Of a stretch of 64,000 nucleotides of DNA, positions 29,459 to 53,065 are shown one piece after another. Position 1 is the stretch's first letter. Every line of letters starts with the position of its first letter. This DNA comes from Klebsiella variicola (GTDB taxonomy: Bacteria > Pseudomonadota > Gammaproteobacteria > Enterobacterales > Enterobacteriaceae): positions 3,038,001-3,102,000 of the forward strand of contig NZ_CP010523.2 in NCBI RefSeq assembly GCF_000828055.2, in the 5' to 3' direction. A model generated the notes under the pieces. The model saw only the letters and a program-made list of their open reading frames with translations, was not told the DNA's origin and did no database searches. The translations under genes and the position numbers were made by a program.

Positions 29459-29929
29459 TCAACCGCCGTTTTTGTCGGCTGAATAATTAACAGCGGGATC
29501 AGGCAACGCTTTTATCAGGGTGGTAATATTTTTCCCTGCATTCATTTCAACGTCAAAAAAGTCCACCGCACGCAGAATAAGCCGCAAGCCTCTACCGCTT
29601 TCCGCTAACGGATCGACATCGAAATGCTCATTACCACGCGCCAGCGCCAGGCGCTCGGCGGGAAAGGTTTCCCCCGAGTCGGTAAAGCGCAGCGTCACCC
29701 GTCGGTCCGCGACCCTAAACTCCACACCAAAACGACTTTCCCGATCCTCATGCAGCGCATAGCGAATAATATTCGTTGCCGTTTCACAAGCGGCGAGATC
29801 GAGCGCGAAACGCCACTCCTCCCCGACAGGCAGCGAAGCCATTTGCTGGGCAAGCCACTCCGCCAGCGGTGAAAGCGAGGTGAGTTCGGCAGGAAACATC
29901 ATGTTGCTATTCACGGGCACGTCACTCAT
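29459..29929 (-). CDS. RsbW-like anti-sigma/serine kinase (HATPase)
   Basis: A 156-aa single-domain GHKL ATPase of the RsbW/SpoIIAB type. The N box holds Glu49 and Asn53 (Cys-Glu-Thr-Ala-Thr-Asn), the G1 box is Asp-Ser-Gly near 88-90, and a Gly-Arg-Gly-Leu-Arg-Leu motif follows. Such proteins bind and phosphorylate a STAS partner and release a target when the STAS protein is dephosphorylated. The STAS and PP2C genes lie immediately upstream (8-bp and 11-bp overlaps), so all three parts of a partner switch are present. No sigma factor is adjacent, so the target is unknown. Confidence 0.88.
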   Translation of the reverse strand: MSDVPVNSNMMFPAELTSLSPLAEWLAQQMASLPVGEEWRFALDLAACETATNIIRYALHEDRESRFGVEFRVADRRVTLRFTDSGETFPAERLALARGNEHFDVDPLAESGRGLRLILRAVDFFDVEMNAGKNITTLIKALPDPAVNYSADKNGG

Positions 29930-30260
29930 TTAACTGCGCAAGTGCCGAGGTGCGATCCTCGCAAATGCGGAAAATACGATCCATACGGGTCAGCGTGAAC
30001 ATATTGCGGATGCCAGGATTCAGCGCGCACAGCGTCATCTCCCCTTTCCCGTTCATCATCTTCATCAGAGAAACCAGGGTTCCCAGACCGCTACTGTCGA
30101 TAAAATCAATTTCGCTGAAATCAACAATCAGATCGCCGGGCGCTTCGCCTATCTCCTGGGCGATTGCCGATTTAAAGGCTACTGCGACGGAAGCATCCAG
30201 CCGACGCACCGCCGGCGTCAGGATCGTCACCGAGGCCTGCCGTTCGGTTTCAATTTTCAT
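29922..30260 (-). CDS. STAS-domain anti-sigma-factor antagonist
   Basis: A 112-aa STAS protein starting at the ATG at 30260, inside the end of the phosphatase gene. The phosphorylation site lies in Asp-Ser-Ser-Gly-Leu-Gly (Ser56/57), preceded by Ile-Asp-Phe-Ile. In partner switching, the unphosphorylated form binds the RsbW-like kinase. The gene order phosphatase, STAS, kinase is a complete switch. A longer start at 30281 is possible but lacks the family N-terminus. Confidence 0.9.
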   Translation of the reverse strand: MKIETERQASVTILTPAVRRLDASVAVAFKSAIAQEIGEAPGDLIVDFSEIDFIDSSGLGTLVSLMKMMNGKGEMTLCALNPGIRNMFTLTRMDRIFRICEDRTSALAQLNE

Positions 30261-31464
30261 CACTGTCCCCTGTACGTTCAATAATCAAGAGTGAAACATC
30301 ATCGGCCATCGCCTGGGTCTCCTGCGCGTCGCCATTGCGCCAGTGGATCAAGTGCCGGGCAAACCGCGGCAGCAGCGCGGGCAGCGGCTGCGTCACACTG
30401 TCCTGCAGCCACGCTTGTAAACGCGCTTCGCCAAACTGTTCACCGCTCCGGTTTTCACATTCGGTGATACCGTCGCTGAACAGGCAAAGCCGCTCTCCTG
30501 GCGCCAGCGAGAAACTGACATCTGCCCATGAGAGATGGTTTATCAACCCCACCGGCGCCCCACCGCTACCGGCCGAGCGCACACTTCCATCAACGGTGAC
30601 GATAAACGGCGTGGGATGCCCGGCCTGACACAGTTTCCCCTCACCGGTTGTGAGGTCGATGACGCCATAGATCAGGGTGAAATAGCTGACAATCTCTGCC
30701 TCGTCGCTACAAAAACGACCATTCAGGATCTGCACTACCTCGGCAGGTGATGCCGGCTGGTTATCAGCAGAGAAAAGAAAACGCTCAACCGCCCTGCCAT
30801 GTAGAAACTGGCGGGCGACGGCAAGCGACATCATCGCCGCCCCCACGCCGTGCCCGGAGACATCCACGCAGTAAAATCCGAGATGCTCCCCCAGCGGGAA
30901 AACATTAAAAATATCCCCCGATACCCAGGCCGACGGCAGGAAAATCCAGTCGGAGAAAAAACCCTGATAGCACAGCTGATGAGCCGGGAGAACCGACTGC
31001 TGAATGCGCGCCGCCAGCTCCAGATCCTGTTCAATCTGCCGCAGCGCTTCACTTAGCCGCGTATTGCGCGCGGCGAGGTCGGCTTCAAGGGAGAGGATCC
31101 GCGCCCCGGCGTGCAGTCGCGCCCGCAGTTCACTCTGCTCCACCGGCTTACTGAGAAAATCATCGGCCCCTGCCGCAAACCCTTGCGTTAAATCGCCCGG
31201 ATTTTCGCGAGCGGTGAGCAATATCAGATAAACGTAGTGACCAAACTGGCGACGGCGAACTTCCCGGCACAGCGTCAGGCCATTCATCTCCGGCATTTCC
31301 CAGTCGCTAATCACCAGGCTGACGGGCTGGTTTTCGAGGATCGCCAGCGCGGCGACGCCGTTTTCCGCCTCACTGACGATATAGCCCCACTGCGTCAACA
31401 TTCGGCTCAAGAGCCGACGATAAACCAGCGAATCTTCAACAATCAGGACGTGCTGTGCCGACAT
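30250..31464 (-). CDS. Response regulator with PP2C (SpoIIE/RsbU-like) phosphatase output
   Basis: A 404-aa protein. An N-terminal receiver domain has the acidic pair Glu10/Asp11, phospho-acceptor Asp54 and Lys106. A coiled-coil linker (about 120-155) follows, then a PP2C phosphatase with metal-binding Asp184 (Val-Ser-Gly-Asp) and Asp201 (Asp-Val-Ser-Gly-His-Gly). It should dephosphorylate the adjacent STAS protein when its receiver is phosphorylated. The hybrid kinase at 40.4-43.1 kb is a candidate source of the phosphate; this link is inferred. The layout resembles the REC-PP2C regulators HsbR and SypE, which control biofilm or polysaccharide traits in other bacteria. Confidence 0.92.
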   Translation of the reverse strand: MSAQHVLIVEDSLVYRRLLSRMLTQWGYIVSEAENGVAALAILENQPVSLVISDWEMPEMNGLTLCREVRRRQFGHYVYLILLTARENPGDLTQGFAAGADDFLSKPVEQSELRARLHAGARILSLEADLAARNTRLSEALRQIEQDLELAARIQQSVLPAHQLCYQGFFSDWIFLPSAWVSGDIFNVFPLGEHLGFYCVDVSGHGVGAAMMSLAVARQFLHGRAVERFLFSADNQPASPAEVVQILNGRFCSDEAEIVSYFTLIYGVIDLTTGEGKLCQAGHPTPFIVTVDGSVRSAGSGGAPVGLINHLSWADVSFSLAPGERLCLFSDGITECENRSGEQFGEARLQAWLQDSVTQPLPALLPRFARHLIHWRNGDAQETQAMADDVSLLIIERTGDSDEN

Positions 31465-31472
31465 CGCGCCTC

Positions 31473-32372
31473 CTAAATCGGCAAGAACCAGATAAGGCTG
31501 ATCGTGCCTTCACGAAACTTGCCGCTGCCGCTGTCGTGCCCCGGATAGCGGGTACCGGCATAGTTGGCATACTGCACAGAGAACGATCCTGGCGTATAGC
31601 CCGCGTAACCGAAGCTGTAGCTGTAGTCGCCATTCCACGGTTGCTGCTGGCTGCTGTCGGGGTACCAGAACGCCGTCGCACGGATAAAGAAATGTTGCTT
31701 AAAGGTATATCCGCACCCCCCGAGCAGTACGTTTTTGTTTTTGCGTATATCGTCACTCTCCAGATCGTAATAACGCGGCACCCAACTGTAGCCCACCTGG
31801 CACATGATGGCGTCGCCTTTGTTGATCAGCAGCGTATTCTCCATGGGCTTCGGCAGGGAAAATTTATATGCCAGAGTGATGGCTCCCTGCTCAAAATAGG
31901 TGTGACGCTTGCTGCCTGAGGTCCAGAAGTGGTTATCGCCATAGTTACTGTAAACCAGGCTGACGGTATTGGCATGCCAGTCGTCGTAGCCAAAACTATA
32001 GCGAAAATCGGCGGTATAGCGGCTGGTATCAGTCACCGGTAAACGGGATGTCACGTTGGCGAACCAGAAGCTGTAAGGCGAGTATTGCAGGCTGAGGTTC
32101 AGCGTCTGATTATATTTTTTCTTCTGTTCTGCGCTGTCTGAGCTGTTGGGGACGGTCATCCACTGCTCTTTTAAACCCGAACTAAAGCTCAGCGCTCCCG
32201 AAAACACCTTGTCATTCCCGGAAAAAAGCCGTCCCCAGCGGCTGGTAAACACGCCGGCCTGCACCGGTTCACCATTTTTATCACGCAGCGGTTGTGCGTC
32301 GTTATTCTCTGCTCCTTCCGCACCTGCGATGGCGCACCATAGCGCGCAGGCCAGCATATACTTCTCCCGCAT
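31473..32372 (-). CDS. Predicted outer-membrane beta-barrel protein of the polysaccharide locus
   Basis: A 299-aa protein with an N-terminal signal peptide (cleavage near residue 18-21) and many alternating aromatic strands (Tyr/Phe/Trp every second residue), ending in a C-terminal strand rich in Trp and Phe, all typical of an outer-membrane barrel. I do not recognise the family with certainty. It lies 10 bp after the OpgC-like gene and 8 bp before the REC-PP2C gene, so it is co-transcribed with them. It may be a pore for an exported glycan or a surface anchor for it. Confidence 0.75.
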   Translation of the reverse strand: MREKYMLACALWCAIAGAEGAENNDAQPLRDKNGEPVQAGVFTSRWGRLFSGNDKVFSGALSFSSGLKEQWMTVPNSSDSAEQKKKYNQTLNLSLQYSPYSFWFANVTSRLPVTDTSRYTADFRYSFGYDDWHANTVSLVYSNYGDNHFWTSGSKRHTYFEQGAITLAYKFSLPKPMENTLLINKGDAIMCQVGYSWVPRYYDLESDDIRKNKNVLLGGCGYTFKQHFFIRATAFWYPDSSQQQPWNGDYSYSFGYAGYTPGSFSVQYANYAGTRYPGHDSGSGKFREGTISLIWFLPI

Positions 32373-32382
32373 TTGCCCTTCC

Positions 32383-33600
32383 TTAGTTAGGTATCCAGCG
32401 TGCGGCGACGCGGTATTTGGCCATCAGCCACAGTACGCCCAGCGCGGCGGCATGGATCAAGGTGTTCACTATCCACGCCTGGTGCCACAGATCGAAGGTG
32501 ACCAACTGGCTTACGGCGAGCACGATATAAACATGCAAAATGAAGGTGTAGAGCGAACGCTGCCCGAGCGGGATCAGGAACCAGCCAGCCAGCCAGTTCA
32601 GGGGACGCCAACACCAGGTCAATAACAGATAAATAGTGACCATCAGACTGATATCATTGAGGATCCGTACCGGCCCGAGGCCGTTTTTCGCCGCCCAGGT
32701 ATGATAAAAGGCGTTAAACTCCGCCGGAGGGATCACGTGCATCAGCAGCGCGGGCGGCATAAAAGGATTGGTATGGTTCTGGGCGACAAACGCAAGGATA
32801 AGCGCGATGAACACCAGCGCCGCGACGGCGACTTTGCCGGGTGGCGTGCGGGCGAAAGAGATCAGTTCCGCTTTGTACCAGCCGCAGCACATTCCCAGCA
32901 CAAAGATAAATTGCCAGGCCAGCAGGGGAAAGGCGAATTCAAATTCGCAGGGCGTCACCCGTACCGGCCAGCGTTGCCAGCAGCCGTAGATCAGCAGCGA
33001 GACGCCCAGTAAGGGGTAGACGTGACCCTTTTGCAGCATTCCCAGAAACAACGGGCTGAGTAACAACAGAAAAATATAGAGACCGAGGATCTGCGTTTGG
33101 TGTGGGCCAATCTGCAGATAGAGGATAATGTTAAACCACGTCTCTTTTATTTGCGGGGTGAGTGGATAGAGCGACCAGCTGGTCCCGGAAAAACGATCGG
33201 TAAAGTGAGTGACTTCAAAGGCATTAATAAACGGAAAATATCTCAGCAAAAGAAAAGAGACAATAATAATAATATTAACCTGATATATTTTCCATGCGCG
33301 CAGATAAAGTCCCCAGCCCACCGTCAGTAATACAGCTTTTTGTAATCTGACACGATTTAGCATCCCTAACATAAAGCCCGACAGGATCACAAAACCCTCG
33401 GCGCCAGTGGTCAAACCAAAACGCTCCCAGCTGAAAATATTAAATATCGACATCACTTCCGTATGCGCCACCACCATCATAACGAGAGCAATGCCGCGCA
33501 TAAAGTCGATACGCAGGTCGCGTTCACCCGCCAGAGAATAACGCCAGACTATTGATTTATCAGTTTCTTTTTGCGAAATCGCTGAGGCAACCTGGCTCAT
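32383..33600 (-). CDS. OpgC-like membrane acyltransferase
   Basis: A 405-aa polytopic membrane protein with about 10 TM helices. The N-terminal Arg-Asp-Leu-Arg-Ile-Asp-Phe-Met-Arg-Gly-Ile-Ala segment and the Gly-Ala-Glu-Gly-Phe-Val-Ile-Leu-Ser-Gly-Phe motif are the OpgC signature. OpgC adds succinyl groups to osmoregulated periplasmic glucans. Here no opgG/opgH lies nearby, but a glycosyltransferase operon is divergent from it. It probably modifies the glycan made by that operon (inference). Confidence 0.88.
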   Translation of the reverse strand: MSQVASAISQKETDKSIVWRYSLAGERDLRIDFMRGIALVMMVVAHTEVMSIFNIFSWERFGLTTGAEGFVILSGFMLGMLNRVRLQKAVLLTVGWGLYLRAWKIYQVNIIIIVSFLLLRYFPFINAFEVTHFTDRFSGTSWSLYPLTPQIKETWFNIILYLQIGPHQTQILGLYIFLLLLSPLFLGMLQKGHVYPLLGVSLLIYGCWQRWPVRVTPCEFEFAFPLLAWQFIFVLGMCCGWYKAELISFARTPPGKVAVAALVFIALILAFVAQNHTNPFMPPALLMHVIPPAEFNAFYHTWAAKNGLGPVRILNDISLMVTIYLLLTWCWRPLNWLAGWFLIPLGQRSLYTFILHVYIVLAVSQLVTFDLWHQAWIVNTLIHAAALGVLWLMAKYRVAARWIPN

Positions 33601-33876
33601 GGAGGATCCTGTCGTCTACCCTGCAACATTTATTACAAATTATTTAGATAGTGTAGAATGCGCTATCTTGCAATGCCCTTTTTATAAATTCCCCCTGCAT
33701 GCATCACACTATGTTAAGCTATCCAGGCACTTCTCAATTCACGCTGTTGAAATTTTTACGCCGCCATCTACACTCATTTTACTGTTATTTACCTGCCATA
33801 ATGCGTCCTGCTGAATGCACCAGGTCGATAACAGACCTGTCACTCAAACTCAGCGCGGAATCAGGATATCCTTGCT
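33601..33876. promoter_or_regulatory. Divergent promoter region of the polysaccharide locus
   Basis: A 276-bp AT-rich gap separates the leftward acyltransferase/partner-switch operon from the rightward glycosyltransferase operon. No credible gene. It must carry both promoters. TTATTTAGATA-like and TATAAATT-like stretches occur, but I cannot fix the start sites by eye. Confidence 0.6.
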
Positions 33877-35694
33877 ATGGATTTTTATTTTTCCCGTTTT
33901 GAACATCGTCGACCGCCTGAGCCGCTCAGCACTCCGAGCTGGGTAAGAATGATCTGGCAGGTATTCGCTGTGGCCGCCCTGGTTCTTGGTGCCAATTATA
34001 TTTACTGGCGCTGGACCGCGTCCTTAAACACTGACGCACTGTGGTATGCAATCCCTCTGGTGCTGGCGGAAACCCTGGCGTGGATTGGCACAGTTCTGTT
34101 CACCATTAATTTATGGCAGGAAAAAGATCCTCCGCCAGGCGTCCCCCCGACGGAGATCAACGACTGTCTGCGAGCGGATGAAGCGGTGGAGTCGAGGCCG
34201 ATTAAAGTCGATCTGTTTATCGCCACCTATTCCGAAGACGTGGAACTGGTCAGGCTGTCGATCCGTGACGCCATGCAGATGACCTATCCCGGTCCGCTCG
34301 ACTATAAGGTGCATGTCCTTGACGACGGGCGTCGCCCGGAAATGAAGGCGGTCTGCGAGCAGGAGGGGGCGAACTACATCACCCGTCAGAGTAATATCGG
34401 CTATAAAGCCGGTAACCTGCGCAACGGGCTGGAACATACCGATGGCGACTTTCTGATCATCTGTGATGCCGATACCCGCGTTTTCCCAACCCTGCTGAGC
34501 CACACGCTCGGCTACTTTCGCGATCCGGACGTCGCCTGGGTGCAGACCCCGCAGTGGTTTTTCGATCTCCCTGAGGGGGAGGATCTGGCATGCTGGCTGC
34601 GGCGTAAAGCTGGCGGCGCAGGCTACGGGGTGGGCTGGCTGGCGCAGAAAATCGTCGGTCCGGTGACCATCGGTCGCGATCCGTTTTTCAACGATCCGCG
34701 CATGTTTTACGACGTGATTTTACGGCGCCGTAACTGGGCTAACGCCGCGTTCTGCTGTGGTGCCGCCTCCGTTCACCGACGGGAAGCGGTGATGCAGGCG
34801 GCACTGCGCAGCTACGTCTGGAGCGTTGACGCCGAGATCGACCGTCATACGCGGGATATTCGCGACCCGGTAACGCGGGAAGCGCTGCAGGACGCCATGC
34901 GCCCCCACGTGGCCTTTGATACTGAACTGACGCCCTATAAGTTCCACGTCTCAGAAGATATTTATACCTCCATCCTGCTGCACGGCGACGCTGCTCGCCG
35001 CTGGCGCTCAGTAATGCACCCGCGGATCGAGTCCAAAATGCTCTCTCCGCAGGATATGCTGACGTGGATGATCCAGCGCTTTAAGTATGCCGCCGGATCG
35101 CTGGATATCCTGTTCCATGACAACATCTTCAGCCGACGCCGCTTTAAACTCTCGCTGCCGCAAACGCTGATGTACGCGACCACCTTCTGGTCCTATCTGG
35201 CCTGCGTGTGGAACACCGTGTTCCTGATCTCGCCTGTTATCTATCTCTTCACCGGCATTCCCCCAGTGTCGGCGTGGTCTACCCCTTTCTATCTGCACTT
35301 TTTACCCTTTTTTATTGCCTCCGAACTGGCCTTTATGTTCGGCACCTGGGGCATTTCTGCCTGGGACGGCCGGGCCTCTTACCTCTCCTTTTTCTCGATG
35401 AATCTGCGGGCGCTGGACACCGTTTTGCGCGGGGAGCAGATCAAATTTCACGTTACGCCGAAAGAGCGACAGACGGGCCGTTTTCTCTATCTCGTCAAGC
35501 CGCAAATTGCCATCGTTTTGCTCACCCTGACAGGGCTGATATGGGGCGGCATTCAGGTGGCGCGCGGTGAGGTTGACGACCCCTCCGGGTACGTCATCAA
35601 CATTTTCTGGGGCGCGGTGAATATTGCCGCCATGCTGCCGTTGATTTTCGCCGCCATGTGGACGCCCCCCGAAGAGCAGGAGGCGAGCCGATGA
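33877..35694 (+). CDS. BcsA-like family 2 glycosyltransferase (processive beta-glycan synthase)
   Basis: A 605-aa inner-membrane synthase. Two N-terminal TM helices (about 26-46 and 57-80) are followed by the GT-A domain with Asp-Asp-Gly (149-151), Asp-Ala-Asp (197-199) and the catalytic Ser-Glu-Asp (359-361). A Gln-Arg-Phe-Lys-Tyr stretch (400-404) stands where cellulose synthases have Gln-x-x-Arg-Trp. At least four C-terminal TM helices follow. There is no PilZ domain, so c-di-GMP control of the cellulose-synthase type is not expected. It starts a seven-gene rightward operon and overlaps the next gene by ATGA. The polymer could be a beta-glucan or mannan. Confidence 0.9.
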   Translation: MDFYFSRFEHRRPPEPLSTPSWVRMIWQVFAVAALVLGANYIYWRWTASLNTDALWYAIPLVLAETLAWIGTVLFTINLWQEKDPPPGVPPTEINDCLRADEAVESRPIKVDLFIATYSEDVELVRLSIRDAMQMTYPGPLDYKVHVLDDGRRPEMKAVCEQEGANYITRQSNIGYKAGNLRNGLEHTDGDFLIICDADTRVFPTLLSHTLGYFRDPDVAWVQTPQWFFDLPEGEDLACWLRRKAGGAGYGVGWLAQKIVGPVTIGRDPFFNDPRMFYDVILRRRNWANAAFCCGAASVHRREAVMQAALRSYVWSVDAEIDRHTRDIRDPVTREALQDAMRPHVAFDTELTPYKFHVSEDIYTSILLHGDAARRWRSVMHPRIESKMLSPQDMLTWMIQRFKYAAGSLDILFHDNIFSRRRFKLSLPQTLMYATTFWSYLACVWNTVFLISPVIYLFTGIPPVSAWSTPFYLHFLPFFIASELAFMFGTWGISAWDGRASYLSFFSMNLRALDTVLRGEQIKFHVTPKERQTGRFLYLVKPQIAIVLLTLTGLIWGGIQVARGEVDDPSGYVINIFWGAVNIAAMLPLIFAAMWTPPEEQEASR

Positions 35695-37022
35695 GGATCC
35701 GCGACGCCCTGCTCTCCGCCCGCAGCTATCTCACCATCCTCATTGGCTTCCTGCTGGGTTTTGCGATTGTCGTATGGGTGGAAAAACAAATGCCTGCGCG
35801 CGTCGAGAGCAGCGGTGGGATGACGTTGAGCCAGGATTTTCCGCCGCTCCCTGCCCCGCGCGAGCTGACCTTTGACGAGGCGATCTGGGCGCGAGTGGCC
35901 TGGCAGTATTATGTGAATAATACTCAGCCAAACGGTCTGGCCAATGCGCACGATGACGAACCCTGGCTTAGCCTGTGGAGCGTCGGCAGCTATCTTTTCG
36001 CCGTGGTCGCCGCAGAGCAGCTGCATATTGTGACCGCCGCCGAAGGCGATGAGCGCATTGCCGCCGCCCTGTTTACGCTCGGTCAACTGCCCCTCAACGC
36101 CCAGGGATTGCCCGCCGCTCAGTACCATGCCGACACGCTGCAGATCCTCGGCAACCCGGACTCCTCCGCCATCGGTATGGGACGCCTGCTCACCGCCCTG
36201 CAAACGCTGCTCTGGCGCTATCCTCAGCACGCCGCCGCGGTGCGGGATCTGTTTAATCAGTGGCGGGTCGGCGCGCTCATCAGCAACAGCCCCGCCAGCC
36301 AGGCCGCGGCGCCGCTGCACCACTGGGCGCTGGCGGCGGATGAACCGCGGGACAGCTTTGGCTACCGGCTGTATGCCAGCCATACGCTGCGGCTGATCGA
36401 CAGCGCCGCGGGGCTGGCGGTGACCAACCCGCCGCAGGGGCAGCAGATGATCGACATCGACGGCATCATGGTGCCCGACGAGGGGCTGCGCACGCCGTGG
36501 GGGCGGCAACCTTCGCTGATCAGCCTGCCGTACCTGCTCACCGGGCTTGAGCTGGGCTTTGACGCGCAGAGTGCGGAGATCGCCTGGCGCATCATGCAAA
36601 TCCAGCAGCGCCGTCATAGCCTGAGGGTCAGCAAGCCGCCGATCAGCACCGACTACGCCGAGCCCGCGCCGGATTATGCCAGCGCGCTGGCGGACCGGCA
36701 GCCGCAGAGCGCCTTCGCCCCGCGCAGTGCCACCCCGGAGCAAACGGCGATCACCTCTACCCGCACCGCCTTTGCCTGGTACGCCCTGTTCCGCAATAGC
36801 TGGAGCGAAGCGCTGCGCCAGCAGGTCCAGACGCTGCAGGTCCCGGGCAAGGGCTGGCAGCGTGGGTTAAATCTCAACCGCAGCGTCAACGACGTTGTTG
36901 ACGGCGATACCAACGCGATCGTGCTGGAAAGCCTGGCCTACATTTCCCGGGGGCAGATGCTGTGTCTGGCCTGCCTGAGCCCTGCCCCTCTACCCTCGTC
37001 CTCAGCAGGAGCAACGCCATGA
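35691..37022 (+). CDS. DUF3131 protein 1, membrane-anchored
   Basis: A 443-aa protein with one N-terminal TM helix (about 14-34) and a DUF3131 domain outside the membrane, carrying the Trp-x-Tyr-x-x-Asn-Asn-Thr-Gln-Pro-x-Gly-Leu motif near residue 70-82. The DUF3131 fold is alpha-helical and resembles an alpha/alpha-barrel, as in some glycan-acting enzymes; its activity is not known to me. Its ATG overlaps the glycosyltransferase stop, and its stop overlaps the next start. The C-terminal third includes a low-complexity Ala/Pro/Gln-rich stretch. It is probably a periplasmic partner of the synthase. Confidence 0.85.
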   Translation: MRIRDALLSARSYLTILIGFLLGFAIVVWVEKQMPARVESSGGMTLSQDFPPLPAPRELTFDEAIWARVAWQYYVNNTQPNGLANAHDDEPWLSLWSVGSYLFAVVAAEQLHIVTAAEGDERIAAALFTLGQLPLNAQGLPAAQYHADTLQILGNPDSSAIGMGRLLTALQTLLWRYPQHAAAVRDLFNQWRVGALISNSPASQAAAPLHHWALAADEPRDSFGYRLYASHTLRLIDSAAGLAVTNPPQGQQMIDIDGIMVPDEGLRTPWGRQPSLISLPYLLTGLELGFDAQSAEIAWRIMQIQQRRHSLRVSKPPISTDYAEPAPDYASALADRQPQSAFAPRSATPEQTAITSTRTAFAWYALFRNSWSEALRQQVQTLQVPGKGWQRGLNLNRSVNDVVDGDTNAIVLESLAYISRGQMLCLACLSPAPLPSSSAGATP

Positions 37023-38566
37023 AGCTGACCTATTTTTCCCGTTTTCCCCTGCTGGCCGGACTCATGGCGCTGTGGCTCTCACTCTCCGGCGCGCAGGCCA
37101 CGACCGGTCTGCCGGCTGCGGAATACGCCCCGCGTAGCGGGGAGCTGACGCCGAGGGAGATGACTATCGCCAGAAATGCCTGGCAATATTTCGTCGCCAA
37201 CTTTCAGCCCACCACCGGGCTGGTCAATGCGGTAAACAAATACCCCTCGACCACCATGTGGGACAGCGCCTCCTATCTGGCCGCCATGACCGCGGCCCGT
37301 GAGCTGGGAATTATTGACAAGGCGGAGTTCGACCGTCGGATGCTGAAGTTTCTCGCCACGCTGAATAAGCTCGATTTATTCCGTAACGAATTACCTAACA
37401 AAGCCTATAACACCGTGAGCGGACAAAAGGTGAACTACCAGAATAAACCGGGTGAAATCGGCTATTCGGCGCTGGATATCGGCAGAATGCTGGTCTGGCT
37501 GAAGGTGATCAAGGAGCGCTATCCGGAATACAGCAACAGCATCGATAACGTGGTGCTGGGGTGGGATTTCAGCCATGTGGTCGACCCCTGCGGCACGCTG
37601 TATGGGGCTTATCTGGAAAACGGCCAGCCCAAATACGTTCAGGAAGGACGCCTCGGCTACGAGGAGTACGGCGCGGCGGGCTTTCAACTGTGGGGATTTA
37701 ATACCTGTCAGGCCAGCCGGCCCCAGCCTTATGAGCTGGCGGAAATTTACTGCGTGATGGTCCCCTATGATTCTCGCGACCCGCGGCAAACCAGCCAGCA
37801 TAACTATGTGGTCAGTGAATCTTACGTGCTGTATGGCATGGAGTTTGGCTTTGATAATCCTGCTGACCGGAACGATAGCCCGCGCGAGTACTCCCATCCA
37901 TGGATGAAAAACTTTGCCGACCGGGTCTACCAGGCCCAGGAGAATCGCTACGCCATCACTGGGATCCTCACCGCTCGCTCCGAGCATCAGCTCGATAAAT
38001 CCCCGTACTTTGTCTATGACACCGTGTTCAGCGACGGTTTTAACTGGAACACCATAACCGACAAAGGCCAGTTCGTACCGAACAGCGCCGCGGTGTCGCT
38101 CAAAGCGGCGATGGGGATGTGGGTGCTGTGGAACTCGCCCTATACCGATCGTTTGCTGGACGCCATTGAAAATGCGAACGAAGCGGGAAAAGGCTATTAC
38201 GAGGGACTGTATGAAAACGGCGACGGGCCAATCAATGAGTTCACCGCCAACAATAACGGCATCATGCTGGAAGCGCTGCTGTTTAAAAAAGAAGGCAAAC
38301 TGCTGCAGTTTTCCAGCGACAATCCGAAAAACCGCGATTTCGCGCCGTCGCTGTGGGACAAAAAGCTGGTGGATCTCTTTGAGCCCAATAACGGCCCGCG
38401 CAACCGCCCCTTCCTGAGCAATACCCCTGCCGTCAAGACATGGTGCGAACAGACCGGAACCACGCAGCGCACCCAACCCGCCTGCCAGGCCTGCCAGTGC
38501 GCCGCCTGCAAGGCTGACGAGCCCGTTAAACTTCCGCCGGTGACCGCGCAATGCTTAAAACCCTAG
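37019..38566 (+). CDS. DUF3131 protein 2, secreted
   Basis: A 515-aa protein starting at 37019 (ATGA overlap). A cleavable signal peptide ends near Ala-Gln-Ala (residue 25 or so), and a full DUF3131 domain has the Asn-Phe-Gln-Pro-Thr-Thr-Gly-Leu-Val-Asn motif. The C-terminal 45 residues hold a cluster of Cys (Cys-Gln-Ala-Cys-Gln-Cys-Ala-Ala-Cys) unusual for a periplasmic enzyme, perhaps disulfides or metal. It overlaps the next gene by 16 bp. It is the largest of the three paralogues, which share the same core and probably act on the same polymer. Confidence 0.86.
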   Translation: MKLTYFSRFPLLAGLMALWLSLSGAQATTGLPAAEYAPRSGELTPREMTIARNAWQYFVANFQPTTGLVNAVNKYPSTTMWDSASYLAAMTAARELGIIDKAEFDRRMLKFLATLNKLDLFRNELPNKAYNTVSGQKVNYQNKPGEIGYSALDIGRMLVWLKVIKERYPEYSNSIDNVVLGWDFSHVVDPCGTLYGAYLENGQPKYVQEGRLGYEEYGAAGFQLWGFNTCQASRPQPYELAEIYCVMVPYDSRDPRQTSQHNYVVSESYVLYGMEFGFDNPADRNDSPREYSHPWMKNFADRVYQAQENRYAITGILTARSEHQLDKSPYFVYDTVFSDGFNWNTITDKGQFVPNSAAVSLKAAMGMWVLWNSPYTDRLLDAIENANEAGKGYYEGLYENGDGPINEFTANNNGIMLEALLFKKEGKLLQFSSDNPKNRDFAPSLWDKKLVDLFEPNNGPRNRPFLSNTPAVKTWCEQTGTTQRTQPACQACQCAACKADEPVKLPPVTAQCLKP

Positions 38567-39945
38567 CTCGCTGGCTGACCGTCGCCATCCTCCTGCTGCT
38601 TATCGCCCTGGCGCTGTTCAGTCGCGAAGGCGCGGGGTGGCGCTGGCTGACCAAAGGCGGCTGGCACACCACCGCCCGTATCAGCAGCCTGACGCCGCAG
38701 GAGCGGACGTGGGCGCAGATCGCCTGGCGGTACGTCGAGAACAATACCCAGCCGCAAACCGGCCTGGTCAACGGCAGCGACAAACAGCCGCGCGCGACGC
38801 TGTGGCAGATGGGCGACACCCTTATCGCCCTGCTCGCCGCCAGAGAGCTGGGGTTGGTAAAGGAAGCGGAATTCGACGCCCGCCTGACGCCCCTGCTCGG
38901 CACCCTCAATCGCCTGACGCTGACCGACGGCGGTTCGCCGGGCAGGCTATACTCCACTCAGACGGCGACCCCTGTCGACTTCAGCGGCAAACCGGCGGCC
39001 AGCGGCTGGTCAGCAAAAGATATGGCCCGACTCATGCTCGCCCTGCGGCTCACCGCCGAACGCGCGCCGCAGTACGGCGAGTACATTGATAAAATTATCC
39101 TGCGCTGGAACTTCTGTCCGGTGATCGATAAAGACGGAGAGCTGTGGTCCGCCTCACTGCAGAACGGCCAGCGGACGATCCGCGAGGAGCTTCGGCTGGG
39201 AGACAGTGAATACGCCGCCAGCGCGTTTCGCCTGTGGGGATTCCCGGCCGGCAAGGCCTTCTCTCCCCCAGCGCGGAATGTGATTATGTATCAGCGTCGC
39301 CTCGCCGTTGACGACCGCGACCCGCGAACCACCTGGCAACCCGTGGTGCTCTCCACTCTGCCCGCCATGCTACCGGGACTGGAGTTCGGCTGGCAGCCGC
39401 CCGGCGTGCCGGAAGAGGTACAAAAAGCCATGCGCGAACGGGCGGAAGGGATATGGCTCAGCCAGAAAACGCGCTGGACACAGGATAAAGTGCTAACCGC
39501 CCGGGCCGATTTTTCGCTTACCCAGGCGCCCTGGCACGTGGAAGACACCGTCTGGGGGAATGGCTACGCCTGGAATACGCTCGGGGACGACGGGAAGTAC
39601 TACCCCCGGCTGGCGCAGGTGACCACCAAAGCGGTCTTTGTCTTGTGGACGCTGTGGGAAACCGAGTATACCGATGCGCTGATGGCGGTCACTACCCATC
39701 TTAACGACTCGCAGCGCGGCTGGTTTGAAGGACGGGTCGAGGCCACCGGCGACGTCAACGCCACCCTCACCCTCTCCACTAACGCTATGGTGCTGGAGGC
39801 GCTGTTTTACAAACACAACGCCGGGCCGTTGTTCAAAAACGGCCTCGCGGATGACAACAGCTACTTTGCCCACCGCGCGACGGACGAATTTAACCCGCCC
39901 CGCCGCTGCCTGCCGGGCGAACGGGTCATTAGGAGCGCACCATGA
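38551..39945 (+). CDS. DUF3131 protein 3, membrane-anchored
   Basis: A 464-aa protein with an N-terminal TM helix (about 6-25) and a DUF3131 domain with the Asn-Asn-Thr-Gln-Pro-Gln-Thr-Gly-Leu-Val-Asn-Gly motif. It aligns with protein 2 through most of its length, including Arg-Asp-Pro-Arg-x-Thr and the final Asn-Ala-Met-Val-Leu-Glu-Ala-Leu segment, so the pair arose by duplication. It overlaps protein 2 at the start and the globin-like gene by ATGA at the end. Confidence 0.85.
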   Translation: MLKTLARWLTVAILLLLIALALFSREGAGWRWLTKGGWHTTARISSLTPQERTWAQIAWRYVENNTQPQTGLVNGSDKQPRATLWQMGDTLIALLAARELGLVKEAEFDARLTPLLGTLNRLTLTDGGSPGRLYSTQTATPVDFSGKPAASGWSAKDMARLMLALRLTAERAPQYGEYIDKIILRWNFCPVIDKDGELWSASLQNGQRTIREELRLGDSEYAASAFRLWGFPAGKAFSPPARNVIMYQRRLAVDDRDPRTTWQPVVLSTLPAMLPGLEFGWQPPGVPEEVQKAMRERAEGIWLSQKTRWTQDKVLTARADFSLTQAPWHVEDTVWGNGYAWNTLGDDGKYYPRLAQVTTKAVFVLWTLWETEYTDALMAVTTHLNDSQRGWFEGRVEATGDVNATLTLSTNAMVLEALFYKHNAGPLFKNGLADDNSYFAHRATDEFNPPRRCLPGERVIRSAP

Positions 39946-40376
39946 AGTTTTATCGCGATCTTTTTGAAGCCAGTCTGAATCGTGTCGTACCGGAGCACGA
40001 CAAACAGCGCTTCTTCCAGGCCTTCTACAGCACCTTTATCCATATGTCACCGGAAACCGAGCAGCACTTCTCCCAACGCTCCGGCGAGGAAGGCCAGCAG
40101 ATGATCTTTAAAAGCTTTTTCGCCATGCTGGCGGTCAACGGCGACCTCTTCGTACCCGATTTTCTGGAACGGCTGGCACGCGAGCAGAGCGAGGAAGGCC
40201 TGCGTCTACCGCCGCGGTTTTTTGCCCTCTGGCGGGAAGCGATGCTCAAAACCGTCCGCGCCAGCGATCCACTGTGCGATGAAGAGATCCTCACTGCATG
40301 GGCAATGGCGATCGCCCCTGGTCTTGAGTATCTGCGCCGCCAGGCGGAGCTCCACTATCAAACTGTTGGCCAGTAA
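39942..40376 (+). CDS. Globin-like sensor protein with substituted proximal His
   Basis: A 144-aa all-helical protein whose pattern fits a bacterial globin. The F-helix-like segment [10 protein letters not shown] (78-87) aligns by eye with the usual Leu-Gly-Arg-x-His-x-x-x-Gly-Val, which would place Gln82 where the heme-binding His should be. If right, it may not bind heme, like the globin-fold domains of stressosome RsbR proteins. It lies between DUF3131 protein 3 (ATGA overlap) and the hybrid kinase (2-bp gap), suggesting an input module for that kinase. The family call is moderate. Confidence 0.55.
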
Positions 40377-40378
40377 TC

Positions 40379-43072
40379 ATGCATGCCGCTAACCGTACCG
40401 ACCTCAACCTCCTGCCCTCAGCGGTGATGATCTACGATGATCGCGAACGGCTGCAGGCCTGGAATGATAAGGTGGCGCTGTTTTATCCAACGATCGCACC
40501 CTGGCTCGCCGTCGGCGCCACTCTTGAGAGCCTGGCCGAGAAGTTTATCGATGCCGGATATAACATCGACCCAGGCCGGCAACAGACGCTGCGCGAGGCG
40601 ATTATCCGCAACTGCCGCCAGACGAACCACTGCGAGGTCCGCCAGTCGGGCAACCGCCGGATTTACATTCAGCATCAGCGGCTGGCGGATGGCGGGATTG
40701 TCAGCCTGCATACCGACATCACCGAGCTTGACGAGGCCCGGCGCTCACGTCACCAGCTTCATGACGACTTTTTATTCACCGCGGAGTCGATCCAGATCGG
40801 TATCTGGGACTGGCAGGTCTCCCACGACAACCTGCAGGTGAATGACACCCTGCTGGCGATGGTCGGCCAGTCGCGGGCCCAGTGGCGCTATCCGCTGCGT
40901 TTTATGCTCAATCTGGTCCACGAGGACGATCGCACTACCCTGCAACAGGCGATGATCGCCTCGCAAAACGAGCATATGCCGGTTTTTGAATGTGAACTTC
41001 GTGTCCAGCACCCGACGCAGGGCTGGCGCTGGATGCTGCTCTCAGGGCAGATCGTCACCCTCAACATGCAGCAGCAGGCAGAGCGGGTGATCGGCACCTT
41101 GCAGGATATTACCCGGCGCAAAGCCGCAGAGCTGCTGGCCATTGAGGCGGCGAAGGAGGCCCGCGAGGCGAACGAAGCGAAAAGCGCCTTCCTCGCCAAT
41201 ATGAGCCACGAAATCCGCACCCCGATGAACGGCATTCTCGGCATGACGCAGCTCTGCCTCGATACGCCGCTGACCGCGGAGCAGCGGGAGTACCTTTCGC
41301 TGGTGATGAGCTCAGCCCAGTCGCTGCTGCACATTATTAACGACATTCTTGATTTCTCACGCATTGAGTCGGGCAAGATGCAGGTGGACGAAGAGCCGCT
41401 GGAGATCCGCCCCTTTATCCAGTCGCTGATCCGCCCGCATATGCCTGCCGCCAGCGAAAAGGGCATTGAGCTGCTGGTGGACATCTCACCTGCGGTACCG
41501 GAGGTGCTGACCGTCGATGGCCCCCGGCTGCGGCAAATCCTGACTAACCTGTTGGGTAATGCGCTGAAGTTCACACATCAGGGGGAGGTTCTGCTGGCGA
41601 TTGCGCCGGCCGACGACGAAAGCCGCTGGCGCTTTCGCATACGCGATACCGGCATCGGCATCGCCCCGGAGAAGCAAAAGGCGATCTTCGAGGCCTTCAG
41701 CCAGGCCGATAGCTCTACCACCCGCCGCTACGGCGGCACCGGGCTGGGGTTAACCATTTCGGCCCGCCTGGTCAGCCTGATGGGCGGCGAGCTGATGGTG
41801 GAGAGCCAGCCCGGGGCGGGCAGCGAATTTGCCTTCACCCTGCCGCTGGAAGGCCTGCACGCCGCGGCCTCCGGTAGCGCTCCGCTGAGCCGCTTCAACA
41901 ACCAGCGGGTGCTGGTGGTTGACGACAACAGCACCAACCTGCGCCTGCTCGACACCATGCTTCGCCAGATGGGGCTGATGCCAAGCTGCGTGGACAACGC
42001 CGGCGAGGCGCTACGCCGGGCCGCCGAAGGGCCGCCCTGGCCGCTGATCCTGCTCGACGCGCAGATGCCGGATATGGACGGCGTATCCCTGGCGCTGGAG
42101 CTCTCCGCCCTGCCCGAGGCCCGGCAGAGCCAGATCATTATGCTCAGCTCCATGAGCCGCCATTTTGACGCCAATATGCTTAAGCGCATCGGTATCGCCC
42201 ACTATCTGCATAAACCGGTGGCGCAGCGCGAACTGCATCAGGTTATCGCCGGTATTCTCCTTCCCACGCCGGTGGTGGCGACAGCGCCAGCCCCCGTTGC
42301 GGAACCGGTCAGGGACCAGACCGGGCTGCATATCCTGCTGGCTGAGGACAACCTGGTTAATCAAAAGGTCGCCAGACGGCTGCTGGAGCAGTTGGGTCAC
42401 CGCTGCGAGGTGGTGAGCAACGGCCGGGAGGCGCTGGAGCGCTGGCGCGCAGCCTGCTGGGATCTCCTGCTGATCGATCTGCAAATGCCGGAGATGGACG
42501 GTGAAACCGCCATCCGTCTGCTGCGCGAAGAGACGCCGGCGCTGGGCAGGCAACATCAGCCCGCGATGGCCATGACCGCCCATGCCATGCAGGGCGATAG
42601 AGAGCGCTGTCTGGCGATGGGCTTCGACGGCTATATCGCCAAACCAGTGAGTCTTGAGGCGCTACGGGAAGCCATCGCCCGCGTCGGCGCAGCGGAAGAT
42701 AGCGATTTGGAGGAAGAGAAAGGCCTGCCGGACGAGGCCCACCTGCTAAAACAGTGCGCAGACGATCCTGAGCTGGTCGAGGAGCTGCTGGGACTCTTCG
42801 CTGAAGGGCTTGATGCTGCGATCATCGCCCTCACCCACGCCATTGATACTAATGACCGGGAGACGTGGCGCCGTATCGCCCACAAACTGCGCGGCGAGGC
42901 GGTCACCCTCGGCTTTCAACGCCTTGCCGGGGTGCTCCAGCAAATGGAGAGCCGGGCGACGTCGCCCGGCCAGACCGTGCCAGATGACCTGCGCGACGCG
43001 CTGGCCGAGGCAACCACAGGCTGCCACCGGTGGCTACATCGCAGATCGCAGGAGGTCCTCCGTGATCGTTAA
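40379..43072 (+). CDS. Soluble hybrid sensor histidine kinase (PAS-PAS-HK-REC-REC-HPt)
   Basis: An 897-aa protein without TM helices. Two PAS-like domains (about 10-115 and 130-245), a short coiled coil, HisKA with His277 in Ser-His-Glu-Ile-Arg-Thr-Pro, HATPase (N box Asn394, G1 Asp423-Thr-Gly), receiver 1 (Asp560, Lys612), receiver 2 (Asp700, Lys755) and a C-terminal HPt domain with His835 (Ala-His-Lys-Leu). The complete phosphorelay could feed an external response regulator. The REC-PP2C protein 10 kb away, in the divergent operon, is the obvious candidate. It overlaps the GH2 gene by 11 bp. Confidence 0.95.
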
Positions 43073-45260
43073 ACGCCTTCTGCTGCTGATGGTTTGCCTG
43101 CCGCTGGCGCATGCCGGTTCTGCGCCGGTGACCTGGTCACTGGCCGGACAATGGCGGGTGCATGACGCTAACGACAGCGCCTTCGACGGCGCGCAGGCTT
43201 CGGATGGCGACTGGCGCACGCTGCGAGTACCGGCAAACTGGTACAGCGCTGGATACGATCATCAGGGCGCCCTGTGGTATCGCCATCAGTTTACCCTGCA
43301 TGGCCTGTCGCCGGATGCCATGGCTACCCTGGTGTTTGACGGCGTCGATTACTTTGCCGAGGTGGCGCTCAACGGCAAGACGCTGGCCCGACACGAGGGC
43401 TATTTTCAGCGCTTCCCGGTGGACATCAGCGGGGCCGTACGCCGCCATAATCAGCTCGCCGTGCGGGTCGACAGCCCCTATGAAGACCCGCAAAAGATCT
43501 GGCCGCTGCACAAAACGCTGATGAAAGGGATCCTGAATCAGCACGACACCCGCCCGGGCGGCGCCTGGTCGGTTCAGGGGCAGGATGCCAACTCCGGGGG
43601 GATCTGGGCGCCAGTGAAGCTCCATCTGAGCCGCGGCGTCACCATCGACGAGGTGATCCTGCGCCCGGACTGGCAACAGGGGCTGGAGCAGCCCATGCTG
43701 CGTGCCGAAATCCGCTATCGGGCTGTGACGCCCGGCCCCGTCACGCTACGCCTGACGGCTACCCCGGACAATTTTTCCGGCCCACGTTTTCACCAGGCCT
43801 TCGCGGTCACTCTGGAGAAAACCGCAGGCGTCCTGCACGTCTCGCTACCCATGCCGTCCGCGAAGCTCTGGTGGCCCGTGGGCGCAGGCAAGCCGAACCT
43901 CTACCGGGTGCGCGCCACCCTAACGGATAACCGGGGGATGATGGATACCGCCGTCACCCGCACCGGATTACGTAAGGTGGAAGCGCTGGCGGATAATCAG
44001 GGCTGGCGCATCAACGACAGACGGCTGTTCATTAAGGGCAGCAACTATATTGGCTCCCCATGGCTAAGCACCATGACGCGGAAAAAGTACCGTCGGGATT
44101 TCAGGCTTGTCACGGCGATGAACGCCAACGCCATCCGCGTTCACGGCCACGTGGCGGGGCGCGCGCTGTATGAGGTGGCCGATGAGATGGGACTGATGAT
44201 CTGGCAGGATGTCCCCCTGCAATGGGGTTACGATGACAGCGCCGCCTTCGCCGAGAACGCTGTGCGCCAGACCCGGGCGATGATGGACCAGTTCGGCAAT
44301 TCACCGGCGATTATTGTCTGGGGCGGCCACAACGAGCCGCCGTGGAACTCGCCGTGGATGGAAAAACGCTTCCCCGACTGGCATAAAACCTTAAACCAGA
44401 CCCTAACACAGCGGGTAGGCGATGCGCTGGCGGAAGACACCTCCCGCATTGTGCATCGTTTTTCCGCCGTCGAAGAACACTACTGGGCGGGGTGGTATTT
44501 CGGCACCCTGCGCGACCTGCTCGCCCCGGCGAAGACCGGGATTATTACCGAGTTTGGCGCCCAGGCGCTGCCCCGGCTCTCCACCCTGAAGACCATTATC
44601 CCGGCTCATCTGCTGTGGCCGAAAACGACCGCCGCTGACGACCCCGGCTGGGTGCGATGGAAGTACCATAATTTTCAGCCTTTCCAGACCTTTAAATTTG
44701 CCGGTATTCCACGAGGCAACAATATTCAGGAGATGATTGAAAACACCCAGGCATATCAGGCCAGACTGGTGGCGCTGGCGGCGGAGAGCTATCGCCGCCA
44801 GCGTTATCAGCCGGTGACCGCCCTGTTCCACTTTATGTTTGTCGAGACATGGCCCTCCATCAACTGGGGGGTGGTGGATTATCTGCGCCAGCCGAAGGCC
44901 GGTTACTATGCCCTGCAGCGCGCCTATCAGCCGATCCTGCCGTCCATCGAGCCGGTGACCGCCAGCTGGCGTCAGGGAAGCCCGGCGACGGTGCGCCTGT
45001 GGGCGGTTAACGATACCTGGGCAGCCTGCGAGGATTGCCGCCTGACCTGGCAGGTCAGGCAAAATGGCCAGATGCTCGCTCAGGGAGAAACCTCGCTGAC
45101 CCTGCCGCCCGACGCTGGCCAAATGGTCAGGGAGTTGACCGTCACCCCCGCCGGCCCGCAGCCCGTGACGATCGACTACCGCATTGACAACCGTCGCGGC
45201 AAACGCGTGGGCGCTAATCAGCATACCGAGCCCGTCGCCGCGGCGCAGGCGGGGAGATGA
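43062..45260 (+). CDS. Secreted family 2 glycoside hydrolase (beta-mannosidase-like)
   Basis: A 732-aa protein read from a GTG at 43062, preceded by a strong AGGAGG six bases upstream; this start gives a clean signal peptide (cleavage near Ala-His-Ala, residue 18). Domains: GH2 jelly roll, Ig-like sandwich, TIM barrel with acid/base Glu425 (His-Asn-Glu-Pro) and nucleophile Glu497 (Thr-Glu-Phe-Gly), then C-terminal sandwiches. Family members cleave beta-mannosides, beta-galactosides or beta-glucuronides. As the last gene of the glycan operon it probably trims or degrades the polymer in the periplasm, as BcsZ does for cellulose (inference). Confidence 0.92.
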
Positions 45261-50650: not shown

Positions 50651-50913
50651 CAGCCAACCTCCATATCCGGCATGCTTGCGATGACACTCGCACCACACTG
50701 TGTCTTGCAGCCATGCAATACAATCCCACGCCCGTTTTCTTCATACGCAGAAACATCGCATTCAATAATTTTATTCGTACTGTGTTTCGGGCAACTTACG
50801 GTATCATTCAAAAGTGCGGCATTATTACCGAATATATCGAAGCTGGATGAGGCTGATGTGACTTTGCCACCGTGCGAAGTCACGTCCCCTAAAACGACGA
50901 CAAACTTCCCCAT
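50650..50913 (-). CDS. PAAR-domain T6SS tip protein, relic locus
   Basis: An 87-aa PAAR protein different in sequence from the one at 5893. It has the Gly-Asp-x-Thr-Ser-His-Gly-Gly start segment, Cys-Pro-Lys-His in the middle and His-Gly-Cys-Lys-Thr-x-Cys-Gly-Ala near the end. The frame is intact. It overlaps the ruined lipase frame by 89 bp and has a weak AAGGA ribosome site. It may still be usable as a tip by the intact T6SS (inference). Confidence 0.88.
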   Translation of the reverse strand: MGKFVVVLGDVTSHGGKVTSASSSFDIFGNNAALLNDTVSCPKHSTNKIIECDVSAYEENGRGIVLHGCKTQCGASVIASMPDMEVG

Positions 50914-51307
50914 TTGTTAATCCTTTATTTAGGTGAGGAATACCCCCAGTAAAACGAATAACTGGAGACTTATTTTTATCAACTTCAGGTAAATCTCGAA
51001 ACACTAGAGGTTCAGAATTTATTTTATCGTCAGAAAGATATTTGTTGGCCTCCAGTTTATAATCTGTCCCGTTTAATCCAAGCCTCTTATTCAGGCCTTC
51101 GCAAAGTTTATTCTCCGCAATTGAAAACCACTCTCCTGTCGAGTTTACACCGTGTACAAGTATAATAATACCAGGCAAATGTGGTGGTAAATCACAATCG
51201 CCTCTGATCTGGCAATTTTTATGAGATGGAAATGAGTACCAGGACGGATGCCAATTATCATCAAATTTACATTCAAGTTCCCGGATGGGTTCAGAATCAC
51301 TGTTCAT
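50825..51307 (-). pseudogene. Tle3-like lipase effector, truncated N-terminal fragment
   Basis: The first 115 or so residues match the N-terminus of Tle3-type (DUF3274) T6SS lipases: Leu-Pro-Gly-Ile-Ile-Ile-Leu-Val-His-Gly-Val-Asn-Ser-Thr-Gly-Glu-Trp near 43-59. After Pro-Val-Ile-Arg-Phe the frame loses similarity. Adding one T at the T4 run (50951-50954) would restore Phe-Tyr-Trp-Gly-Tyr, the expected family motif, but a stop (50925-50927) follows four codons later. So there is a likely 1-bp deletion, and the catalytic Ser domain is missing altogether. It overlaps the PAAR gene downstream and the immunity gene upstream. Confidence 0.82.
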
Positions 51308-52346: not shown

Positions 52347-52347
52347 C

Positions 52348-53030: not shown

Positions 53031-53065
53031 TTTCCCGGTTAATCCATTAACAGACGCGCCCCCGG

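Follow-up and report, generated by a model that had tools for sequence, protein, structure and literature searches.

The stretch of DNA analysed here, referred to as the window, comprises 64,000 nucleotides of a complete 5.52-Mb Klebsiella variicola genome (G000:C1:3038001-3102000), and the coordinates of the locus are given as window positions. Positions 29459 to 45260 hold twelve closely spaced genes, arranged as two divergent operons with 276 bp between them, for which we propose a role in the synthesis and export of an acylated beta-glycan under the control of a partner switch. A first-pass annotation, made from the sequence alone, had described these two operons, and every gene that it named was found to be open and in the place given. 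It had omitted a 144-residue globin relative, its start for the glycoside hydrolase family 2 (GH2) gene had to be corrected to 43062, and it had called the partner switch split; the PP2C, STAS and RsbW genes are in fact contiguous, and the kinase alone stands in the other operon.

The plus-strand operon opens with a gene for a processive family 2 glycosyltransferase (GT2) of the cellulose-synthase superfamily (33877-35694), which is without a PilZ domain and has QRFKY replacing the QxxRW motif. Three DUF3131 genes follow, denoted D1 (35691-37022, family match at 1.1e-65), D2 (37019-38566, 1.9e-130) and D3 (38551-39945, 5.7e-94). D1 and D3 each have one N-terminal hydrophobic segment, and the N-terminus of D2 resembles a signal peptide by eye. 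The globin-like gene (39942-40376), whose product is a candidate non-haem sensor, is followed by a hybrid histidine kinase gene (40379-43072) with the domain order PAS-PAS-HisKA-HATPase-REC-REC-Hpt and a single marginal hydrophobic stretch (622-640). The GH2 gene (43062-45260) comes last; its GTG start codon is preceded by AGGAGG, and its product has a hydrophobic, signal-like start and the catalytic-site motifs NE and TEFG.

From the divide outward, the minus-strand operon encodes an OpgC-family acyltransferase (32383-33600; PF10129 at 2.9e-48, 165 bits against a cut-off of 21.4), an outer-membrane beta-barrel candidate and probable glycan export pore (31473-32372; signal peptide by eye), a SpoIIE-type REC-PP2C phosphatase (30250-31464; Response_reg 2.2e-28, SpoIIE 1.3e-35; SGD and DVSGHG motifs), a single-domain STAS protein of the RsbV/SpoIIAA type (29922-30260; STAS 4.2e-16; DSSGLG motif) and an RsbW/SpoIIAB-like ATPase of serine-kinase type (29459-29929; HATPase_c_2 5.7e-18; N-box ETATN). 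The intergenic region between the operons (33601-33876) is a candidate shared control region. Within it, a block around CATCTACACT is similar across nine aligned close relatives and is a candidate site for a regulator.

Pfam scans of all twelve proteins detected no PilZ, BcsB, BcsC, PgaB or OpgG/H domain. The first-pass annotation had likewise seen no PilZ, BcsB/BcsC, PgaAB or OpgG/H, and its statement that this is not a bcs, pga, syp or opg locus holds by gene content. Neither PgaA nor PgaB, which would mark a poly-N-acetylglucosamine (pga) system, was matched in the locus; of the opg products, OpgC is present, and OpgG and OpgH are not in the locus. The OpgC-family gene is the only one in the genome, as are the three DUF3131 genes for their family, which matched none of 14 control genomes. 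As the genome also carries, elsewhere, two complete bcsA genes and a pair of MdoG-family genes, the locus described here is additional to them. The bcsA genes are full-length and lie 15 kb apart, at G000:C1:231415-233439 (L092) and 246562-248610 (L091), which makes it probable that the strain carries two cellulose loci in addition to the DUF3131 system.

Conservation of the locus was assessed in 27 relatives collected through the middle DUF3131 gene, D2, a single-sequence query that returns close relatives only; we take all of their genera to belong to the Enterobacterales. Gene order was retained in relatives with 67-93% identity in the best segments of GT2 and of the central DUF3131 protein, and at such identity the clustering exceeds chance. 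GT2, D1 and D2 were present in all 27 loci, D3, GH2 and the barrel in 26, OpgC, PP2C, STAS (one cut at a contig end) and the kinase in 24, RsbW in 23 and the globin-like gene in 14. About half of all absences fall at contig ends, in L009, L013 and L014. The divergent layout of the window was found in 22 of the 27 loci. Yersinia nurmii (L022) and Budvicia (L023) have the genes in one direction, and OpgC is absent from both stretches; two Edwardsiella loci (L024, L026) are without the switch, and L013 is cut off before the divide. Both Edwardsiella loci have OpgC and a barrel gene located downstream of GH2; in L024, OpgC and GT2 are separated by two other genes. The first-pass annotation had joined the two operons into one unit from their position and had named their routine separation in other genomes as the observation that would speak against it. 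Retention of the layout in most relatives, together with the versions in one direction (L022 and L023, and L069 as a single gene run), supports the view that the two operons form one system, as judged by comparison of genomes. Genes broken over two or more frames were seen in L009, L010, L014, L018, L028 and L045 (many in Leclercia, L028; GH2 in L045), of which assembly error and decay are both possible sources.

The locus is accessory, and some copies are plasmid-borne. Among the matches listed, plasmid copies occurred in Salmonella (two, with 92% identity of the middle DUF3131) and Pantoea (eight, 78-87%), and the Salmonella plasmid copy of the 144-residue gene is annotated 'globin'. Within 20 genomes of the window's genus the middle DUF3131 was found in its own genome only. 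An order-level sample of 295 genomes yielded full-length DUF3131 in 10 (12 matched, two of them partially), and a near-mode search of complete E. coli genomes with positions 30250-42000 gave no match.

More distant versions were also found. Eight Vibrio-type genomes (Vibrio sp. THAF190c, L068, and G199, G182, G049, G154, G141, G157 and G021) have the order PP2C, STAS, RsbW, GT2 and three DUF3131 genes, with GH2 and GH9 genes inserted between RsbW and GT2 in G049 and G157. The barrel gene is divergent next to PP2C in seven of the eight and lies beyond the DUF3131 genes in G182. The seven genomes besides THAF190c have a fourth DUF3131 gene within about 20 kb, and the THAF190c record has four matching places. 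In Rhodobacteraceae SC52 (L069) the genes for PP2C, STAS, ATPase, response-regulator kinase, DUF3131, acyltransferase, GT2 and a further DUF3131 are consecutive on one strand; two hypothetical genes then follow, the second with a barrel-related C-terminus. Most parts were also present on two Paracoccus plasmids and in the f57 loci. A Nostoc plasmid carries a looser version, with DUF3131 genes, a GT2, and STAS-, PP2C-, receiver- and RsbW-like open reading frames (ORFs); its GT2 retains QRLRW and falls outside the clade of the system.

Co-occurrence of these genes, which the first-pass annotation had proposed as a check, was assessed in a phylum-level sample of 398 genomes. GT2 was counted at scores of at least 450 bits (15 genomes; G539, at 107 bits, was dropped). 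PF11329 matched 36 genomes, of which 20 were counted as DUF3131 proper, among them G525, where a contig end cuts the match short, and G507, where it is fragmented; the matches excluded were 15 ORFs of about 2,800-3,000 residues, matched within profile positions 1-136 only, and a partial match in a 572-residue ORF of G106. GT2 and DUF3131 occurred together in 14 genomes, GT2 only in one (G384), DUF3131 only in six and neither in 377 (Fisher p = 2.5e-20, uncorrected for shared descent). A partner-switch gene was found near GT2 in 11 of the 15 genomes (G000, G021, G141, G154, G342, G356, G384, G392, G419, G447 and G484), although for G356, G392 and G447 these were no more than weak STAS matches; the contig of G369 is 3.2 kb long, and G525 was left out. 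In G384 the GT2 (720 bits, QRFKYAGG) is accompanied by a complete PP2C/STAS/RsbW set and by a divergent gene for a 909-residue tetratricopeptide-repeat (TPR) protein with a PgaA_barrel score of 25.2 bits, just below the cut-off of 27; no DUF3131 match was found in that genome. Among the genomes with DUF3131 only (G345, G372, G402, G478, G507 and G588), that of G478 is on a 3.1-kb contig, and those of G345, G372, G402 and G588 are longer proteins (816-936 residues) that may be a different class. This second class, of 816-943 residues with a long N-terminal part, was noted in L054, L055, L056, L057 and L073, the last with a DUF2334 match just under the cut-off and adjoining a GT2 gene, and this class may represent a separate glycan system.

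The best solved relatives of the GT2 are BcsA proteins, and its best NCBIfam match is also a cellulose synthase, with the CelA model scoring 198 bits against a cut-off of 699 and the PgaC model 32.6 bits against 422. A maximum-likelihood tree with 54 rows placed the 42 proteobacterial GT2s of the system in one clade (99/100) and the BcsA and BgsA-like rows together outside it (98/99). Long branches in this tree are mainly those of the OpgH, PgaC-like, cyclic glucan synthase (Cgs), BgsA-like and Nostoc rows, and its two Cgs regions were cut by position, QxxRW not being found in those proteins. QR[FYL]KY was present in all 42 system GT2s, as were LDDG, DxD, ED, KAG and QxPQ/H, and FxVTxK in 34; QxxRW is the form seen in the BcsA, BgsA-like and Nostoc rows. 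These 42 proteins were gathered through DUF3131 or similarity to the window, and 26 are from Enterobacterales, so that they count as sequences and not as independent events. Of the motifs expected in a synthase-dependent membrane GT2, the window GT2 has D, DxD, ED, KAG and QxPQ, and QRFKY stands where such enzymes have QxxRW, a motif that, according to the relevant passages of PMC6821405, is fully conserved in the GT2 set of that study and whose Trp stacks on the acceptor glucose.

A 52-member DUF3131 profile matched three solved sequences at E values up to 0.001, including 8wy1 (7.7e-7), the cyclisation domain of the cyclic glucan synthase TiCGS. When a 162-member alignment was compared with eight Cgs cyclisation regions, hhalign reported 97% (E = 3.9e-11) over 120 columns with 23% identity. 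The eight regions have invariant Glu and His residues at the spacings of TiCGS (+44, +86, +180; E1356, E1400, E1442 and H1536, numbered as in the section of PMC10834661 consulted), as expected of GH189 proteins. The DUF3131 proteins do not themselves show homology over the whole GH189 domain with its two catalytic Glu; the alignment is confined to their first ~120 residues, which makes DUF3131, by profile comparison, kin to part of the Cgs cyclisation-domain fold, with a putative enzymatic activity. An E-x-R-L look-alike was seen by eye in both DUF3131 and Cgs, and no claim is made for it.

The three DUF3131 proteins differ in their acidic residues. In the 52-member alignment, D82, E209, E215, E216, D254, E395 and E399 were all retained in 25 of 25 D2 sequences, the window's D2 included. 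Among 13 D3 sequences, D254, E395 and E399 were kept in 13, E209 in 11, E216 in 10, and D82 and E215 in none; the window's D3 keeps the counterparts of E209, D254, E395 and E399 and has lost those of D82 and E215. In 14 D1 sequences the counts were D82 3, E209 3, E215 2, E216 0, D254 0, E395 1 and E399 2, and the window's D1 has lost most of the residues conserved in D2. Because the acidic residues are mostly lost in D1 and mostly kept in D2 and D3, we propose that D2 and D3 are enzymes that probably cut, transfer or remodel the glycan, and D1 looks like a degenerate scaffold.

The barrel candidate belongs to no Pfam family, and a profile search of the PDB gave no match up to an E value of 10. 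Sixteen of 30 short barrel relatives end in Phe. Their profile matched the C-termini of five of eight longer proteins (L069, L070, L058, L060 and L113; hhalign 90-99%), and no relation was detected to the proteins of L064 and L065. TPR proteins with a PgaA_barrel match lie beside GT2 in L074 (over the cut-off) and L111 (under it). For GH2, pattern searches found NE in 29 of 29 sequences and a TEFG-type motif in 28 of 29. Genes for GH16, GH9 and GH2 recur near loci of the system: GH16, adjoining DUF3131 or one gene from it, was confirmed for L040, L043, L047, L050, L068 and L114, which are six of the eight Vibrio-type genomes (G182 was left out, and none was found downstream of D3 in G141 among ORFs of at least 200 residues), two GH16 genes lie beside OpgC and STAS in L074, and L044 and L051 have GH9. 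In Vibrio-type loci, RTX-repeat proteins of about 1,620 residues are encoded between extra DUF3131 and barrel genes (L039:9356-14236, L043:10868-15727 and L049:945-5807), with ABC-transporter and adaptor-like genes, probably for type I secretion, nearby; the ABC transporter was confirmed in L039 only. These neighbours suggest a biofilm-matrix setting.

The window encodes the components of a partner switch, namely a PP2C phosphatase, a STAS protein with a phosphorylatable Ser motif and an RsbW-type kinase, and phosphorylation of the STAS protein is predicted. The DSS motif of STAS is intact in 37 of the 40 rows aligned, and the PP2C motifs [SGA]GD and DV[SA]GHG are kept in most rows covered by the alignment. 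The N-box pattern of RsbW was found in 36 of 36 sequences and the G1 pattern in 34 of 36. The 144-residue protein, the candidate sensor, matches the solved globin PA3967 (1tu9; E = 5.7e-11). The aligned His of 1tu9 and of a flavohaemoprotein is, we assume, the proximal haem ligand. At this position 13 of 14 relatives have Gln and one has His, and the proximal His of a haem globin is not found in the 144-residue protein, which is therefore probably a non-haem globin.

The best hint as to where the switch acts comes from other genomes. Beside GT2, a STAS domain is fused to an NTP_transferase domain in G356 (STAS 21.2 bits, under the cut-off of 22.6) and G419 (24.0 bits, over it). Fusions of this kind, of a STAS domain with a hexapeptide-repeat nucleotidyltransferase, lie beside GT2 at L064:14481-15980 and L065:13181-15010. 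In L022, L039, L043 and L114 an NTP_transferase gene lies between STAS and RsbW. In addition, STAS overlaps GT2 by one base in L060, and in L058 it overlaps a GH2 gene adjoining GT2. The fusions and insertions suggest synthesis as the level at which the switch operates. The twelve genes of the window locus include no nucleotidyltransferase, and the target there may therefore be GT2 or the DUF3131 complex.

What the sequences show directly is the gene content, the retained synteny, the signature residues of the switch and of GH2, and the relations between families. Taken together, we consider it probable that the locus encodes a distinct type of synthase-dependent secretion system, which would export an acylated beta-glycan, most likely a beta-glucan, under partner-switch control. 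For the path of the glycan we infer that the GT2 would polymerise a beta-linked chain, most likely of glucose, and thread it across the inner membrane, where the membrane-anchored D1 and D3 and the periplasmic D2 would receive it; D2 and D3 would then probably cut, transfer or remodel the chain, with D1 as the scaffold. OpgC would acylate the glycan, the barrel would export it and GH2 would trim it. As to the order of the phosphorelay and the target of STAS, we infer that the hybrid kinase and its globin-like partner may pass phosphate to REC-PP2C, which would dephosphorylate STAS; STAS and its kinase would then switch glycan synthesis on or off, probably through protein contact with the synthesis apparatus. 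A broader proposal is put forward tentatively: that this is an uncharacterised class of polysaccharide secretion reaching from the enteric bacteria as far as Rhodobacterales and possibly cyanobacteria. Its GT2 clade, with the acceptor site rebuilt as QRxKY, would produce a novel beta-glycan; DUF3131 would be a new family of periplasmic enzymes that cut or transfer glycan and are kin to the beta-1,2-glucanase clan; and control by c-di-GMP would be replaced by a phosphatase, STAS protein and kinase that gate synthesis directly, on the level of protein.

Several observations weigh against the proposal of a switch-controlled beta-glucan exporter. The f57 loci L058, L059 and L060 have DST, NSS and DAS for DSS, and RsbW and PP2C were not found there; the G2-box pattern of RsbW fits only 18 of 36 sequences. 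In neither Edwardsiella locus do PP2C, STAS, RsbW or the kinase occur within 10 kb, and no switch gene was found near GT2 in G632 and G450. Beyond the first ~120 residues, no significant alignment of DUF3131 with Cgs was obtained from any of three crops, and the catalytic residues are not mappable. The short barrel did not match the PgaA-type barrel of L074. The closest solved structures to GH2 by sequence are beta-mannosidases, and the nucleotidyltransferases best match mannose-1-phosphate guanylyltransferase (177 and 168 bits against a cut-off of 440).

The glycan machine could be real and its switch an ordinary transcriptional one, with RsbW binding a sigma factor or regulator encoded elsewhere and the glycan genes as mere targets. 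Trios of RsbW, STAS and PP2C classically act on sigma factors, and the similarity of the intergenic block among relatives allows for transcriptional control. No sigma-factor gene lies among the twelve of the locus, however, and the two STAS-NTP_transferase fusions and the four loci with NTP_transferase between STAS and RsbW point to synthesis proteins; STAS also overlaps GT2 in L060 and the GH2 next to GT2 in L058. We consider this explanation unlikely.

Doubt also attaches to the sugar, since a divergent GT2 might make a beta-mannan, a glucosamine polymer or a mixed polymer. A non-glucan product would suit the replacement of QxxRW by QRxKY at the acceptor-stacking site, the beta-mannosidase-like GH2 and the nucleotidyltransferases nearest mannose-1-phosphate guanylyltransferase. 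Against it stand the GH16 and GH9 genes beside Vibrio-type members and the retention of the other glucan-synthase motifs, and membership of GH2 leaves the sugar unfixed. We regard a non-glucan polymer as rather doubtful and retain beta-glucan as the favoured product.

It is also improbable, in our judgement, that the product is a new osmoregulated periplasmic or cyclic glucan that is not exported, made by what would amount to a split cyclic glucan synthase with DUF3131 cyclising or cutting the chain and OpgC adding succinyl groups. The presence of the OpgC family fits such a glucan, as does the cluster of four genes under 'DUF3131' that PMC8371737 places in a salt-shock network module of Shewanella. 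However, 26 of the 27 Enterobacterales loci have the barrel candidate, and related C-termini occur in Rhodobacterales and f57. The GT2 groups on the BcsA/BgsA side and not with OpgH or the two Cgs regions (long-branch rows, with Cgs cut by position), homology to GH189 is partial, and the GH16 and GH9 neighbours suggest 1,3/1,4 linkages. A merely unusual cellulose locus, suggested by the cellulose synthases among the best NCBIfam and PDB matches of the GT2, is most improbable given the 198 bits against a cut-off of 699, the lack of PilZ, BcsB and BcsC domains, the two full bcsA genes elsewhere and the separate QRxKY clade.

The proposed exporter has features in common with several described systems. 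Like Bcs and Pga systems it combines a GT2, periplasmic factors, an outer-membrane exporter (a candidate here) and a glycosidase; unlike them it has three DUF3131 proteins and a partner switch, and no PilZ, BcsB, BcsC or PgaB. In cyclic glucan synthases the cyclisation domain, to which the first ~120 residues of DUF3131 are homologous, belongs to one giant protein; in the window locus the genes are separate. A BgsA-like protein (L084), which we take to be BgsA from its length and the neighbouring adaptor gene, falls outside the system clade, has a canonical QRERW motif, and has no DUF3131 or switch gene among its annotated neighbours within 4 kb. BgsA, the mixed-linkage beta-glucan synthase of Sinorhizobium, belongs to the same GT2 superfamily and is likewise without PilZ, and has a c-di-GMP-binding C-terminus, as described in PMC5567048. 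In the syp system of Vibrio fischeri, the multi-domain response regulator SypE and the STAS protein SypA control a biofilm polysaccharide (PMC4517449 and PMC3610818), which parallels the control proposed here. The syp locus comprises 18 genes; the window locus has a single processive GT2, PP2C and RsbW-like proteins that are separate, and the DUF3131 proteins. According to a 2015 abstract, the mechanism of biofilm control by SypA was not known.

The first-pass annotation had presented the system as undescribed. No functional study or demonstration of a glycan was found in a literature search whose coverage mostly excluded subscription journals, and in that sense the description stands; the same kinds of genes had already been listed for accessory 'block 3b' of Klebsiella pneumoniae in a population-genetics study (PMC12974863, 2026). 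The passages on block 3b give a gene list and no function, and the likeness is one of gene kinds. They do not mention a barrel, GH2 or globin gene, unlike the window locus. If our proposal is correct, the locus would be an accessory and sometimes plasmid-borne surface-polymer machine of enteric bacteria, so far without a name or product. It would also assign a role to DUF3131, extend the GT2s by a clade that breaks the QxxRW rule, and offer a case in which control of polysaccharide synthesis, in place of a sigma factor, by a partner switch can be tested.

Outside the locus, type VI-related ORFs were observed on the minus strand of the window at 50825-53644, in and just before a stretch with a GC fraction of 0.445 (52001-56000). 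They comprise a VipA match (53066-53644), a match to DUF2345 (52348-52953), which is presumably the C-terminal part of VgrG, and the start of a Tle3 phospholipase effector domain (50825-51307; 75 of 321 positions). These ORFs are probably a remnant or the edge of a type VI secretion locus.

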